From NCBI RefSeq assembly GCF_026240905.1, contig NZ_JAPEVI010000003.1:2976001-3040000 (forward strand): 64,000 nt of DNA, written 5' to 3'. A program made the translations under genes and the position numbers. This DNA comes from Roseibium salinum. Its GTDB lineage: Bacteria; Pseudomonadota; Alphaproteobacteria; Rhizobiales; Stappiaceae. Below, in pieces: positions 32,593-64,000 of the stretch. The first letter of the stretch is position 1. Every line of letters starts with the position of its first letter. The notes under the pieces were generated by a model. That model made no database searches and had not been told where the DNA came from. It saw only the letters and a list, made by a program, of their open reading frames with translations.

Positions 32593-33477
32593 ATGTCCCT
32601 GTCAGCTATTTTTGCATCCCGCTACCAGCGACGCACTTTCTTGCTACTGTCGATCCTAATTATTGCCTTTGCGTTAGCTACGCTCTGGGCGATTTACTAC
32701 TTTTTACCTGACATCCGCGCATGGAATCTAATCATCAGCCTACTTATCTCAGTAGTTGCGAGCGCCGTATTTGCACTTGTGTCCGCACTATTTATTTCTT
32801 ACTTCTTTGAAGATCCGACTGCGGCTGAATCGAAGGCGGTACTACTACCTCAAGATATTGGCCCGACGCTGCAAAATATGGCGAATAACGCTCACGATTA
32901 CAAAATCTATGTGCGAACGGGTCGGCATTTCCGATCCGAAATACTTCCACTTATAGCAAAAGCAGCAAGAAGAGAGCGTCGACCTGTGAACATTGAAGTT
33001 ATACTTTTAGATTTCCGAGACAACGCGATTTGCGAAAAATATGCTAACTATCGACGATCAGCTTCATTTGACTCCAAACTTTGGAGCAGAAAATATGTTC
33101 AGAAAGAAGTCTTATCCACAATTATTGCGCTTATCCAAACCGCAAACGAAAACACTACTTTCATCAACATCGAATTATATCTCAGTTCGCGCCTTTCTAC
33201 GTTCCGAATTGAAGGCTCCTCACAAGAAATTCTCGTTACTCGCGAAGACCCTAAAGATATTGCTGCGCGCTATCTCTCGTCACACCGCAACCATGCAGCT
33301 TTTGTGACTGAATTCACGTGGATCCGAGATGCTGCTTTATCGACCAACATGGGACGCAGACATTCCTTACCCGCCACCCTGGAGGACTTGTTTAAGGATA
33401 CCCCTACCCCTATCATTGCCGAACTAAAAGACGACGCAGTTAAAGCACTCGAGTCCCCGTCTCCCTATGCCCGCTAA
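32593..33477 (+). CDS. Two-helix membrane protein with large cytosolic domain (island gene)
   Basis: 294 residues. Two membrane helices (about 15-38 and 45-71) are followed by a roughly 220-residue cytosolic alpha/beta domain. Conserved-looking segments are HDYKIYVRTGRHFRSEILPL with RRPVNIEVILLDFRD, a beta-alpha-beta unit recalling the N-lobe of PLD-like folds, but no HxK(x4)D catalytic motif is present. The domain continues with NIELYLSSRLSTFRI. AT-rich codon use contrasts with the host. The last 11 bases overlap the next gene. Topology (two helices plus a sensor/effector domain) resembles effectors of phage-defence modules, but this is only an architectural analogy. Confidence 0.7.
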   Translation: MSLSAIFASRYQRRTFLLLSILIIAFALATLWAIYYFLPDIRAWNLIISLLISVVASAVFALVSALFISYFFEDPTAAESKAVLLPQDIGPTLQNMANNAHDYKIYVRTGRHFRSEILPLIAKAARRERRPVNIEVILLDFRDNAICEKYANYRRSASFDSKLWSRKYVQKEVLSTIIALIQTANENTTFINIELYLSSRLSTFRIEGSSQEILVTREDPKDIAARYLSSHRNHAAFVTEFTWIRDAALSTNMGRRHSLPATLEDLFKDTPTPIIAELKDDAVKALESPSPYAR

Positions 33478-34105
33478 ATTTACTTTACCCCTTTCGATTG
33501 AATATGTTCACACAACCCCAGTGGTTTCTCTCCTTGGTCAAATCAAGAGTTGGCTTATTGACCAGAATCCAAAATGCTTACTTCACCCTCACGGATTCTA
33601 CGTGGTCCGATTACATCAAACTGAAACAGAAGATTGGAGATTTCATCTGTGGCCGGCAGGACCCAAGACAATTACGGGCATGCCCGCCTTTATTCACACA
33701 CACGACCGTCACGTTGAGAGCCGCATTCTAATGGGGGAACTGACCAACATTGACTACGATATAATAACGTCTGAGACGGCAGGAAGGCCGCTTTATAGCG
33801 TAAGATATGAAGGTGACCGCTACATTTCATCGACAGCAAACGTTCTATATAGAACCGCGACACGCGCTGTAGCGCACATCCGCTCGCAAAGGACGTTGCA
33901 AAAGGGAGAAATGTATCGGGTCAAACGTCACATGTATCATGAAGCCGTGGTTTCCGAAGAATTCACAACCGCAACACTGGTGTGTATGCATAGTCAGCTA
34001 CCAGGACCAGTGAGCGTCGTCGGCTGCGATGGATATCCGCCAAACATTGAATTTAAGCGTTCTGAAATTCGGGCGCGTACATTCACTGATCTTCTCACGG
34101 GCTAG
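33467..34105 (+). CDS. Cupin-like putative metal-binding protein (island gene)
   Basis: 212 residues, soluble. The centre shows a cupin-style motif IHTHDRHVESRILMGEL (His77, His79, then Ser-Arg and Gly), and later GEMYRVKRHMYHEAVV with His155, His158 and Glu159, the spacing expected of the two metal-binding motifs of small-molecule dioxygenases and related cupins. No exact family recognised. ATG 33467 overlaps the preceding gene by 11 bp, so the two proteins are made together and likely act together. AT-rich. Confidence 0.65.
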   Translation: MPAKFTLPLSIEYVHTTPVVSLLGQIKSWLIDQNPKCLLHPHGFYVVRLHQTETEDWRFHLWPAGPKTITGMPAFIHTHDRHVESRILMGELTNIDYDIITSETAGRPLYSVRYEGDRYISSTANVLYRTATRAVAHIRSQRTLQKGEMYRVKRHMYHEAVVSEEFTTATLVCMHSQLPGPVSVVGCDGYPPNIEFKRSEIRARTFTDLLTG

Positions 34106-34498
34106 TAAGCTGTTAACGTCGCGCTCGACTTGGATGATCATGAAATGACCAAGCTGGACAGTCAATATACGGTTTACGAGCGTCAATTCTGGTCAACCTA
34201 TCGGCCATCGGAGCCAACGCGGCACTCGCCGTACAATGAGCTTTTTGTTGCACTATTATTCTATGGTACCCGTCGGGATAGCGCCGTTCGGACCATTGCC
34301 AGGTTGCATATTCACAATTTCGGCAACTCTGCTCTGGGTATCTAGACATAATCGATGACCTCCCATCGCGCGCTACAATAGCTCTCGAATTGCAGCACTT
34401 CTGCCTTGATAACACAAGTGTATCTGGCATCTGGATTGTGAATGTTTGAATCTAGGACGCCGTAGCTGGAGGCCCGAGAATCGCCAGAAGTTCTCCCC
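34106..34498. other. Right flank of the island, no convincing gene
   Basis: Short frames exist on both strands (34130-34345 plus, 34113-34430 minus) but neither has a ribosome binding site or conserved-looking composition. AT content falls back to the host level near 34500. Confidence 0.4.
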
Positions 34499-35410
34499 TC
34501 ACCCATACCGCACAAACGCAAACCGTTTCCCGTCCGGCGCCCAGGACGGCACGTTGAGGGTGCCCTGGCCGCCGAACAGTTTCGTGAGCACGCGCGGGGA
34601 GCCGCCTTCGGAGGGGAGAAGGCGGAGCTGGACGGTTTTTTCCGCCGGGTGGCCCTTGGTGCCGGCTTCATAGGCGAGATAGACGATGTGGCGGCCATCG
34701 GAGCATCCTGCGTTCACGCAGGATGTTCCGTCACTTTCAGATCGATCAACTTTTCCGCCTTCAGGCGGTTCCGCCTCAAGGCGGGTTGATCCGGGCGACG
34801 GGTGCGGGAACCAGTTGACGCGCTCGTCCGCCGTCATCTGCTGCAGGTCGCTGCCGTCGGGGCGTATGCGCCAGAGCTGGACGGAGCCGGCGCGCTCGCC
34901 GTTGAACCAGATCCACTTTCCGTCCGGCGTATAGTCCGGGCCGTCGCAATGGTCGAAGTCCTCGGTGAGCTGAATTTCCGCGCCGCCTTCGGCCGGGCAA
35001 GTGAACACCTGGAACGCGCCGGTTCTCCGGCCCACATAGGCCAGCGTTTGCCCGTCCGGCGACCAGCCGTGCCAGTAGGACGGGATGGCCTGCGTGATCC
35101 GCTCCGGCGTGCCGCCACCGAGCGGCAGCGTATAGATGCAGCTTTCCCGCGTCACCGACGCATCGCTGATGACCAGCATCGTCCCGTCCGGGGAAATGCC
35201 GTGGTCGTTGTTGCAGCTGTCGGCAAAGCCGGTGTCGATCTCCTCAAGGGCCGGTTCTGCCAGCGGCAGCCGGTAGAGGCGGCCGCCGCCATTGACGATC
35301 AGCGCCGCCCCGTCGGGCGTCCAGTTCGGCGCTTCCAGGTGGCGATCCGTTTCGAAAAGGACGGTCTCCTCGCCGGTCTCGATATCGAATGCCGCGACAA
35401 TGCTCTTCAT
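34499..35410 (-). CDS. TolB-like beta-propeller (WD40-like PD40 repeat) protein with palindromic insertion
   Basis: 303 residues with no signal peptide. At least five blades each carry the PD40 signature: APNWTPDGAALIV, DHGISPDGTMLVIS, WHGWSPDGQTLAYV, CDGPDYTPDGKWIWFNG, and SWAPDGKRFAFV at the end. One further blade is split: PHPSP and DGRHIVYLAYEAG are separated by 31 foreign residues (encoded by 34700-34792). Removing these restores a continuous blade. Propellers of this type bind proteins or sugars; function unknown. It stands alone between the island and a repeat region. Confidence 0.85.
   Translation of the reverse strand: MKSIVAAFDIETGEETVLFETDRHLEAPNWTPDGAALIVNGGGRLYRLPLAEPALEEIDTGFADSCNNDHGISPDGTMLVISDASVTRESCIYTLPLGGGTPERITQAIPSYWHGWSPDGQTLAYVGRRTGAFQVFTCPAEGGAEIQLTEDFDHCDGPDYTPDGKWIWFNGERAGSVQLWRIRPDGSDLQQMTADERVNWFPHPSPGSTRLEAEPPEGGKVDRSESDGTSCVNAGCSDGRHIVYLAYEAGTKGHPAEKTVQLRLLPSEGGSPRVLTKLFGGQGTLNVPSWAPDGKRFAFVRYG
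34700..34792 (-). repeat. 93-bp in-frame palindromic insertion inside the beta-propeller gene
   Basis: Exactly 31 codons long. It holds two hairpins: GCATCCTGCG/CGCAGGATG around TTCA (34703-34725), and GATCAAC (34744-34750) paired with GTTGATC (34785-34791) enclosing CCGCCTT/AAGGCGG-type repeats. The inserted peptide (GSTRLEAEPPEGGKVDRS ...) is unrelated to the propeller. It behaves like protein-embedded palindromic elements known from Rickettsia. Confidence 0.7.
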
Positions 35411-35600
35411 GAAAGACGTCTCCCGATTGCTGCCTGCGGGCCAGATGTTCCGGGTCAGGATGCACGAGCGTAGACCGGTTGCACAGTCTCATGGTGGAGT
35501 TGCGCGCGCTCGGTGCATCCCGCAGTGATGCGTTCGCGTCCACCGCCGGGGCGCACTGGCATGGCCGTCAACCATGTCCCTGAACACGGGAGTGTGGCGC

Positions 35601-35934
35601 ACGCCGGTTTTCGGGCGCGGGCGCTCTGGAAATGAGTGGGTCCCCGATCAAGTCGGGGATGACACCGGTGGGGAGGAGAGGCGGTGCCATGAGCGGGGGC
35701 CGTGGGCGTCGGCCGTGGCGCAGGCATGGGGGTTCGGGAGGACGAGTGTGTCGCGAGGTGTGTCGCGGGCGGCGGACACCGGTTTTCGGGCGCCGCCGCT
35801 CTGGAAACGATTGGGTCCCCGATCAAGTTGGGGATGACTCCGGTGGGGAGGCGAGGCAGTGGCATGAGCGGAGGCCATGGTGCGGGCGCGAGGGTTCGGG
35901 AGGACGGCGCGGCCCGTGTCGCGGGCGGTGGTGG
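35601..35934. repeat. Tandem ~175-bp imperfect repeat with palindromic cores
   Basis: Two consecutive copies, offset by about 175 bp, share CCGGTTTTCGGGCGC, GCGCTCTGGAAA-like sequence, GGGTCCCCGATCAAG-TGGGGATGAC hairpins (35639-35664 and 35814-35840) and GGTTCGGGAGGACG. Non-coding; belongs to the same GTCATCCCC palindrome family seen elsewhere in the window. Confidence 0.65.
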
Positions 35935-36307
35935 GAAGGTTTGCCGGCAAACGGGGCCGGCGGGCGCAAATCGTTAACCGGCCGGTGGTTATAAAAATCC
36001 GGGTTATCCGGCCCGAAACCGGCCGAAAGCAGGGTTTTCCGGCTCAACCTGACGCAGTTGCAAGTCGCGCCCACACGCGAAAATCGCTCGTCAGAACCCG
36101 CAATTGCAATCATGGCTAGTATTTCCAAGGGCTCGCACTCGGTATTTCCGCCAAGACTCCCGCTAGGTAAGGTTGTATATATGGGTGCTTATGCAAGTCT
36201 AAAACAGAACTAATTTTAATCAAAAATCTAAATATCCGGTTTTATCTGTCGTAACACTTTGTTGCTAGGGTCCGTAACCAATCAGTCACCTTGAGGCAAG
36301 AAACACG
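35935..36307. other. Intergenic region before the Tad-like genes
   Basis: 373 bases. The last 150 (about 36150-36300) turn AT-rich, with TAAAACAGAACTAATTTT and ATCTAAATATCCGG, and are the probable promoter area for the pilus-like genes. No gene recognised. Confidence 0.45.
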
Positions 36308-37552
36308 ATGATACGGCTACTCTCGCGCGCTTTCGCTGCGGACCGGAAAGGAACGATCGCCACGATGACGGCGATCGTCATGCCGGTCGTGATCGGCGGT
36401 TTCGGACTGGGGGCCGAGGCGACCTACTGGTATTTCACGCAGCGCAAGCTGCAGAACTCGGCCGACGTGGCCGCCTATGCCGGTGCCTCGCAACTGCGGC
36501 TCAACAAGACCCAGCAGGCGATTGCCGACGCGGCGACGGCCGCGGCGGTGAAAACCGGCTACCGGGCGTCGATCGGCACGATCACCGCCAGCTGGCCTGC
36601 GGTGAACGGCACCTATGCGGGCGATGCCAAGGCGGTGGAGATCACCGTCCAGGAAGACCTGCCGCGGATGCTGACATCGATCTTTCTGAACGGCACGGTG
36701 CCGATTTCCGGCCGCGCGGTGGCCCGGCTGAAACAGGGCTTCCCGACCTGCATCCTGTCGCTCGACCCGAATGCCGCCGGGGCGGTCACCTTCACCGGCT
36801 CGGCCGACGCGACGCTGGAGGGCTGCAACGTTCACGCAAACTCGCTGGCGGGCGACGCGGTGACCGTTTCGGGCAGCGGCAAGGCGCGCACGCCCTGCGT
36901 TTCCTCCGTGGGCCAGGTTTCGGCGACCGCCGGGCTCGCCATGTCGGAATGCTCGGCGCCGATCGAATATGCCGACCCGATCGAGGATCCCTTTGCCGGC
37001 GTACCGGCGCCCTCGACGACCGGCGCGTGCGAGCCGACGAACGTGTTCGCCGGGCCGCAGTCCGCCACCTACACGATTTCGCCCGGCCGCTATTGCGGCG
37101 GCTTGTCGATCAAGCGCACCGTGACCATGAACGAGGGCGTCTATGTGGTCGACGGCGGCACGCTCACGATCGAATCGAGCGCCACCGTCGCCGGAAGCGG
37201 CGTGACGCTCTACCTGACCAACGGCGCCTCGGTGAGCGTCGCCGGCACGGCGAACGTCACCCTGAGCGCGCCGACAGCCGGCGACTACAAGGGCGTGCTG
37301 ATCTTCGTCGACCGGAATGCGGCGAACGCCACGCATATCCTGAACGGCAGTTCGTCCTCCTACCTGCACGGGGCGATCTACTCGCCCACCGGCCATGTGG
37401 AATTTGCCGGAACGAGCTCGATCGGCGGCGGCTGCACGCAGATCGTCGCCAACACGATCGAGATCACCGGCACGGCCGGGATCGGCAGCGACTGCACGAC
37501 AATGGGTTTCAACGACATCAAGAACGAGCAACTGGTGCAGCTCGTCGAATGA
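36308..37552 (+). CDS. Tad/TadG-like pilus assembly protein
   Basis: 414 residues. The N-terminus is the classical TadG/TadE leader: a basic stretch (AADRKGTIATMTAI), one membrane helix, then ATYWYFTQRKLQNSADVAAYAGA, the Tad-domain hallmark. Behind it lies a long extracellular region rich in Thr/Ser/Gly beta strands with paired cysteines (PTCILSLDP, EGCNVHAN, RYCGGLSI, GGGCTQIV, GSDCTTM), resembling a collagen-binding or right-handed-helix passenger. Expected at the inner membrane or cell surface with Flp-type pili. Its stop codon overlaps the next start (ATGA). Confidence 0.85.
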   Translation: MIRLLSRAFAADRKGTIATMTAIVMPVVIGGFGLGAEATYWYFTQRKLQNSADVAAYAGASQLRLNKTQQAIADAATAAAVKTGYRASIGTITASWPAVNGTYAGDAKAVEITVQEDLPRMLTSIFLNGTVPISGRAVARLKQGFPTCILSLDPNAAGAVTFTGSADATLEGCNVHANSLAGDAVTVSGSGKARTPCVSSVGQVSATAGLAMSECSAPIEYADPIEDPFAGVPAPSTTGACEPTNVFAGPQSATYTISPGRYCGGLSIKRTVTMNEGVYVVDGGTLTIESSATVAGSGVTLYLTNGASVSVAGTANVTLSAPTAGDYKGVLIFVDRNAANATHILNGSSSSYLHGAIYSPTGHVEFAGTSSIGGGCTQIVANTIEITGTAGIGSDCTTMGFNDIKNEQLVQLVE

Positions 37553-42396: not shown

Positions 42397-44690
<2,294 letters not shown>

Positions 44691-46729: not shown

Positions 46730-46934
46730 CGTCAGGTCCCGCGCGTGGGAATGACCCGGGCGGCGGGCCTCAAGGACGAGCCGCCTGATGCACATATCGG
46801 TCCCTCCCCGGCCCCAGAAAAGGCGCCCGCAGCCGCTGCAGCCGGTGCTTGCCGCAACAGGCGACAAATCAGGTATTTCGGTGTATCATCTGAAGTTGCA
46901 GGTCGTGGCCTCGCGTTGAGACATTTGCGTCCGG

Positions 46935-47026
46935 GCAGCTTGTGTTCGTGCAAGCGCAGACAAGCTGCTCTAACGTCTTATGATCATTCAAATTTCCGTT
47001 TTGCATGCGAGACCGCATGAAAACGG
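46935..47026 (+). other. Two hairpins in the leader of the DUF2189 gene
   Basis: GCAGCTTGT (46935-46943) pairs with ACAAGCTGC (46960-46968). CCGTTTTGCATGCG (46996-47009) pairs with CGCATGAAAACGG (47014-47026) apart from one bulge. They lie 60-150 bases before the DUF2189 start and may form a structured leader or small RNA. The rest of the 421-bp gap after rpsA shows only the terminator. Confidence 0.4.
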
Positions 47027-47086
47027 GCCGATCCAAGCGGCAGCGCCCGAGCCGCGACCCGTCCGACTGGTGTTGGAGGGACAGTT

Positions 47087-63837: not shown

Positions 63838-63980
63838 GTCATCCCCGGCTCGATCGGGGATCCATTGGCTTGTCTGGTTTTGCAAGAAGACTGGCATGGT
63901 TCACAGGATGTGCAGCACCCCCCTGCTTTCAAAGTCAGTTTCTCTGGAAATGATTGGATCCCCGATCAAGTCGGGGAAGA
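63838..63980. repeat. GTCATCCCC-family inverted repeat at the window end
   Basis: GTCATCCCCGGCTCGATCGGGGATCC (first 20 bases: GTCATCCCCGGCTCGATCGG) at the left is mirrored by TGATTGGATCCCCGATCAAG and TCGGGGAAGAC at the right, with TCTCTGGAAA between. Same family as 35.6, 39.0 and 48.0 kb. No gene is seen from 63673 to 64000. Confidence 0.65.
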
Positions 63981-64000
63981 CTCCAGGAGGTGACGCATTG

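Follow-up and report, generated by a model that had tools for sequence, protein, structure and literature searches.

A dispersed two-hairpin repeat read in frame within a TolB-like propeller gene of Roseibium salinum

How does a palindromic DNA repeat come to be read as part of a protein, and does the repeat in question belong to a kind that habitually enters genes? Both questions are raised by a propeller gene in the window, by which we mean the whole stretch of 64,000 nucleotides analysed here (Roseibium salinum, contig NZ_JAPEVI010000003.1, positions 2,976,001 to 3,040,000). We propose that 93 bp of this gene are a copy of a dispersed, RIME-like two-hairpin element of about 103 bp, which inserted in the gene and has been tolerated there, a reading that is in all likelihood correct. 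The stretch is a member of a repeat family, is missing from the other propellers compared, is open in the frame that the gene needs and has a length that is a multiple of three.

A 31-codon insertion and its host gene

The host gene and the parts of the inserted element lie in the window as follows.

34499..35410, minus strand: PD40 (TolB-like) propeller gene, host of the insertion, a single open frame of 303 codons
34699..34791 (equivalently 34700-34792), plus strand: two-hairpin element in the orientation of the family model; covariance match of 85 bits, E 1.4e-13 (81.8 bits in a second scoring)
34699..34730, plus strand: hairpin I, 32 nt, with 15-nt arms and a short loop
34731..34743, plus strand: single-stranded spacer, 13 nt, family consensus near CACTTTNAA
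34744..34791, plus strand: hairpin II, 48 nt, with a GATCAAC ... GTTGATC outer stem and a 4-nt TTTT bulge

The element is antisense to the host gene and is read as residues 207-237 of the 303-residue PD40 protein, the frame being open throughout the 93 bp. One ambiguous base allows two drawings of its limits, 34700-34792 or 34699-34791, both of 93 bp or 31 codons, and the family model fits the latter. The insertion falls inside a PD40 blade between the codons of Pro206 and the next Asp, where the initial annotation had placed it. The arms of hairpin I (34699-34713 and 34716-34730) are 93% complementary, and this hairpin is without the 4-nt 3' bulge and without part of the loop that full-length copies possess. 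Folding energy is -54.6 kcal/mol for the element as against -24.4 +/- 2.8 kcal/mol for 200 dinucleotide shuffles (z = -10.6), and the other strand gives z = -10.9 (200 shuffles). With this z and the open frame, an in-frame palindromic insert of exactly 31 codons and two hairpins, as first proposed from the letters of the sequence, is borne out, and the folding statistics together with the dispersed copies described below exclude a chance origin of the hairpins.

The 31 residues are missing from every other propeller with which the protein was compared. A search of 60 relatives at E<=1e-30 returned 17 matching proteins, 17/17 of them without the residues, and the same holds for 199/199 further rows, made up of 80 genome loci (the best 80 of 96 encoding a relative) and 119 database proteins (the best listed of 7857 hits, not counting the window protein), two sets that may overlap. 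Judged by this comparison, the 31-codon stretch is an insertion into the propeller gene. Orthologues without the residues, on which the claim of an insertion depended, were found in both sets compared, and since other copies of the element exist and other propellers are without the insert, the claim stands at both points at which it could have fallen.

The protein matches PF07676 at 9.3e-21, its best solved structure is 2ojh, a putative TolB of Agrobacterium (43% identity; TM 0.96 relative to the target length), and its closest named propellers come from Roseibium, Labrenzia and Stappia. AlphaFold (52 sequences) gave a mean pLDDT of 89.1 for the 303 residues, and the sole stretch below 50 was residues 210-236, between strands 198-204 and 241-247. 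In these models the propeller fold appears undisturbed and the insert would be a disordered loop between two strands of a blade, the 31 extra residues probably forming a floppy loop on the surface. Against ten orthologues, with the insert excluded, the window gene has dN of 0.16-0.22 and saturated dS of 1.0-2.5, like the other pairs shown; dN/dS is about 0.07-0.20 with dS saturated, a ratio that cannot separate constraint after the insertion from constraint before it. The codon score of the gene is 84 for 303 codons, which is below that of its neighbours per codon and still leaves it called as coding. The window protein clusters in the database with one other sequence (2 members in all), and the insert may therefore be present in a second strain.

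Copies of the element and their pairing

Further copies of the hairpins, whose existence the initial annotation had implied, are plentiful in the genome. BLAST with the element gave 43 matches at E<=10, itself included. A covariance model (R1) was built from an alignment of 17 own copies, cut at their matching ends, with 13 of the 30 fetched loci left out, and it gave 97 matches at E<=0.1; own copies match R1 by construction, the weakest matches may be chance, and at least 3 are the opposite strand of another match. Two of the family matches lie elsewhere in the window.

42601..42693, plus strand: family match, intergenic, E 9.8e-5
46931..47033, plus strand: family match of the full length of 103 bp, intergenic, E 2.4e-5

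The nearest other copy in the genome is only about 75% identical to the window copy, so the insertion need not be recent.

The family extends well beyond this genome. At E<=0.01 the family was matched in 22 of 37 genomes from a sample of relatives and in 19 of the 23 within the genus, our own being included in both counts, and numbers within the genus were very uneven, from 0 to 97. A sample of the order, searched with filters that lose weak matches, gave matches at E<=1e-4 in 38 of 219 genomes, spread over 17 families and counting our own, and many of the matches listed were exactly 103 bp. Plasmid pNGR234b of Sinorhizobium fredii has 10 matches at E<=0.01, two of which are one place on opposite strands. 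A plasmid search with an NGR234 copy gave 132 records at E<=1e-3, of which 100 are from Rhizobium, 13 from Ensifer, 10 from Sinorhizobium, 4 from Agrobacterium and the last five from other sources, and in 24 of the records the match covers 80% or more of the copy; with the window copy as the query, no plasmid match was obtained at E<=0.01.

The pairing of both hairpins is conserved while their sequences change. Among the 17 own copies 89% of cells were paired and 16 of 36 pairs had two-sided changes; on four of five measures this structure exceeded every one of 500 shuffles, and on the fifth, the number of pair types, 7/500 shuffles came up to it. An alignment of 22 copies from many families had two-sided changes in 29/36 pairs and was 90% paired. 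It comprised the window copy, one copy from pNGR234b and 20 from genomes across the order, our own among these genomes, with two other copies left out. Its covariation was 0.478, compared with 0.171 when shuffled and at most 0.122 when slid, and 0/500 shuffles reached it on any of the five measures; these copies were found with a model that bears the structure, which favours paired ones, and the alignment itself was made by sequence. The consensus has a 4-nt bulge in each hairpin, in the 3' arm for hairpin I and in the 5' arm for hairpin II. Read from sequence, the compensatory changes point to a function of the family at the level of the nucleic acid.

No Rfam family matched positions 33000-37000 of the window at E<=1. 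At the loci of six relatives, Rfam gave an unrelated sul1 RNA above threshold and one weak, below-threshold overlap with the element, namely RF02600 BASRCI27 (Brucella sRNA CI27), which at 38.1 of the 59.8 bits required covers a copy at L370:1491-1667. This hints that the two-hairpin repeat may be what has been reported, in some cases, as an alphaproteobacterial sRNA.

In a second element-rich genome (G021, taken as R. marinum), at least 7 copies stand head to tail in exactly 103-bp steps (contig C5, 75686-76507). Each joint of this tandem array has one YRG-type trinucleotide common to both copies, and the array could have arisen by slippage or by insertion next to an existing copy.

Gene context, ends and likeness to known repeats

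Where do the other copies lie? Genes were called by codon usage, trained on the window and the loci; such a caller misses foreign, A+T-rich genes, so that a few copies may have been called 'intergenic' in error, and it does not recognise as hosts any genes that the element has broken. Our own genome has 84 matches at E<=0.01 (13 more lie above that threshold and were left out), and 83 of them were classified after removal of one antisense overlap: 75/83 were intergenic (a class that includes overlap of a gene end by up to 15 nt), 7/83 overlapped a called gene by more than 15 nt and 1/83, the window copy, was inside a CDS. Of the 111 matches in G021 at E<=1e-3, 83 were classified, the remainder being 9 neighbours within arrays and 19 of lower score, and 0/83 were inside a CDS. 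Random 103-bp placements in the window fall inside a called gene 62% of the time, and relative to these the rarity of own-genome copies inside genes has a P of about 3e-33. With one copy in 83 inside a gene where 62% would be expected at random, the family either avoids genes or is purged from them. Among 40 plasmid matches listed, 27 were annotated, with no feature at 26 and a transposase gene overlapping by its last 3 nt at the remaining one, the plasmid gene tables being incomplete and the S. meliloti GR4 record carrying no annotation. The gene in question is an annotated IS481 transposase gene of Martelella, which ends 3 nt into the family match.

Flanking genes were oriented ++ in 40, -- in 25, -+ in 13 and +- in 4 cases in our own genome (with 1 copy inside), and 36, 27, 14 and 6 in G021, as compared with 21, 20, 8 and 8 for gene neighbours in the window, which is weak evidence for an orientation bias of the copies. 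In 5 own copies and 3 in G021 the first three bases of the element (TAG or TAA) are the stop codon of the upstream gene, the distance being -2 in the own copies, and the Martelella transposase gene is a similar case.

The length of the copies bears directly on how one of them could be translated. The commonest length is 103 bp (18/83 exactly), which leaves a remainder of 1 modulo 3, and 29/83 copies have a length divisible by three, 28/29 of these with at least one open frame. Over the whole set 79/83 have at least one stop-free frame of six. The window copy, at 93 bp, keeps the frame because it is 10 nt shorter than the 103-bp form, whose length would shift it, and a length of this kind does not set it apart from the other copies.

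The ends of the element are less readily interpreted. Its first three bases are YRG (CGG, TGG, TAG or CAG) in 57/83 own copies and 60/83 in G021, unfiltered. Of 163 copies, 105 had a YR(G/A) start together with a standard end and were retained, the other 58 being filtered out; C precedes the element in 77/105 of those retained, and the trinucleotide that follows it has Y at the first position in 97, R at the second in 86 and G at the third in 73. The starting and the following trinucleotide are identical in 19/105, where shuffling gives 12.7. With many offsets tried, this excess is modest and is weak evidence for a simple target duplication. The initial annotation had read a possible duplication of this kind from the flanks of the window copy. 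CGG does indeed stand at both of its ends; in most copies the left trinucleotide is base-paired with the last bases of hairpin I and is to that extent sequence of the element. By its sequence the CGG of the window copy is most simply a part of the element and constitutes weak evidence of target duplication.

A candidate mobiliser was sought in the Y1_Tnp family (PF01797), which gave 0 matches at E<=1e-5 in our own genome and none in two other element-rich genomes, G011 and G012; a match was present in 6/37 genomes, G021 included, where the frame holds a stop. Mobilisation by a RAYT was set aside for want of a Y1_Tnp match in our own genome.

Among known repeats, the closest likeness by description is to the Rhizobium-specific intergenic mosaic elements RIME1 and RIME2, reportedly described by Osteras, Stanley and Finan in 1995 (J Bacteriol 177:5485) and said to have been found first at the chvI two-component region. 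RIME1 is reportedly about 108 bp long with two large palindromes; the present family has 103 bp and two hairpins. RIMEs have dozens of intergenic copies in rhizobia, according to the accessible part of PMC2573895. The present family is likewise mostly intergenic (82/83 own and 83/83 G021 copies are not inside a called gene) and is present on plasmids of Sinorhizobium, Ensifer, Rhizobium and Agrobacterium. It occurs in both S. meliloti and R. leguminosarum, as RIME1 does: the GR4 plasmid of the former matches the NGR234 copy over 103/103 nt at 86%, and plasmid sequence of the latter matches it over about 56-62 nt, half an element. It differs in having one copy inside a reading frame and in its range, for whereas the name of RIME1 implies restriction to Rhizobium, the present family occurs in 17 families, Stappiaceae included, and for this reason we file it as RIME-like and not as RIME1. 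Anatomy, size, location and host range would all fit such a relationship, the likening being made by description and not by the RIME1 sequence. At the pckA loci, examined for a copy in the chvI region, of 30 of the 79 genomes with pckA (their family inferred as Rhizobiaceae, S. meliloti not identified among them), 1/30 had a strong match, with two copies downstream of pckA, and one had a weak match at E 0.022.

The initial annotation held that only Rickettsia elements and a few relatives are well known to colonise genes in this way, which is too narrow, as the accessible text of PMC3733652 reports REPs within genes from several species, REPs being mostly intergenic. The present family resembles the REPs in being palindromic, mostly intergenic and now and then intragenic. 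It differs from them, on the same partial text, in its two unequal hairpins and length of about 103 bp (REPs have 20-40 bp) and in its usual YRG ends (REPs have a GTAG or CGTC tag), and also in the absence of a Y1_Tnp match from our own genome; we rejected the REP/RAYT class on its architecture and on that absence. Br-REP1 and Br-REP2 of Bradyrhizobium are also intergenic palindromic repeats of rhizobia and are found in 3'-UTRs, and they are set apart by their description in the available part of PMC5082802, which prints another consensus and smaller palindromes. The rosR inverted repeats of R. leguminosarum were considered as a functional parallel and rejected, as the accessible part of PMC5748706 makes no link from them to RIMEs. 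Among the open-licence papers listed on RIMEs, on repeats in the genus and on in-frame palindromic elements in Rhizobiales, none describes the present case in its title or the start of its abstract.

How the insertion may be read

We favour the following account of the locus. The element would have arrived by whatever machinery spreads the family and inserted after the codon of Pro206 and before that of the next Asp. This copy may have survived in that position by being 10 nt shorter than the 103-bp form and stop-free in frame, and by falling between two blade strands, where it is modelled as a disordered loop. The intergenic copies are probably transcribed and act as two paired RNA hairpins beside the ends and starts of genes, as their compensatory changes and location suggest, and the copy in the propeller gene is most likely passive, tolerated baggage. 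Passive tolerance is the simplest reading because the frame is open at 93 bp, the loop is disordered in AlphaFold, dN is low and the copy is antisense.

Several other explanations take up parts of the same evidence. The initial annotation likened the insert to the Rickettsia palindromic elements (RPEs), and an element of that type, regularly adding in-frame peptides to proteins, would account for a palindromic repeat lying in frame within a protein gene, for two hairpins and a 31-residue peptide, and for the stop-free frame found in 79/83 copies. As far as the accessible part of PMC10969869 goes, nearly half of the first-described RPEs lay inside CDSs and RPEs enter genes often, in-frame fusions by intragenic MITEs being not unusual and RPEs exceptional in their frequency. 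The present family, in contrast, is inside a CDS in 1/166 classified copies (1/83 and 0/83 in the two genomes, against 62% at random), and its commonest length of 103 bp is not divisible by three; we therefore reject an RPE-like, gene-colonising class, which is scarcely credible here, and this part of the initial annotation did not hold. That the 31 residues have instead been domesticated as a selected loop with a new role in the propeller would agree with the kept, stop-free frame, with the low dN of the whole gene against its orthologues and with the two-member cluster that may place the insert in a second strain, and is nevertheless highly improbable given that the insert is predicted to be disordered and is common to none of the 199 other rows.

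A dying gene could carry the insertion as a neutral passenger, and it can be said for this explanation that the insertion is seen nowhere else among the rows compared, that the gene lies beside a patch of A+T-rich ORFs outside the codon-model calls, and that its score per codon is below that of its neighbours. A pseudogene is nonetheless quite improbable in the face of an intact frame of 303 codons that is still called coding, a dN/dS of about 0.07-0.20 (dS saturated) like that of intact orthologues and a confidently predicted fold. Also unlikely, to a lesser degree, is a role for the insert as a site of pausing, processing or decay in the mRNA or DNA of the propeller gene, with the peptide a by-product. 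Both strands fold far better than their shuffles and pairing in the family is kept by compensatory changes, as such a role would lead one to expect, but this copy is antisense to its host and inside a frame where ribosomes would presumably melt the hairpins.

Tentatively, and with more doubt than conviction, the preferred reading of a tolerated copy can be extended to the family as a whole. There may be one order-wide Rhizobiales element, known in part as the 'Rhizobium-specific' RIMEs, whose length of about 103 bp and pair of mirror-image bulged hairpins are maintained by selection for pairing and which spreads by something other than a RAYT. The window copy would then be an intergenic RNA or DNA element become protein, the loss of 10 nt from a hairpin having given a length divisible by three and hence a translated loop.

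The locus offers a clean case outside Rickettsia, in a marine bacterium, of a palindromic repeat that normally lies between genes and here has become protein sequence, and the copies around it provide a background rate for intragenic copies (1 of the 166 classified). The two-hairpin architecture reaches beyond Rhizobium with strong compensatory changes of base pairs, and the family is a candidate for curation, Rfam having no match at the window copy, and for a search for its mobiliser.

Two further features were seen in the surroundings of the propeller gene. A foreign-looking patch beside it, at 32593-34105, consists of two A+T-rich ORFs that overlap each other and go uncalled by the codon model, and an NCBIfam scan of these ORFs gave only insignificant matches (E 0.07-0.08). 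A different short palindromic repeat (GTCCCCGATCAAGTYGGGGATGAC) is present at 35640-35663, 35815-35838 and 63958-63981, where a mean of 0.00 copies is expected from 100 shuffles, and the first two of these lie just beyond the start of the propeller gene.
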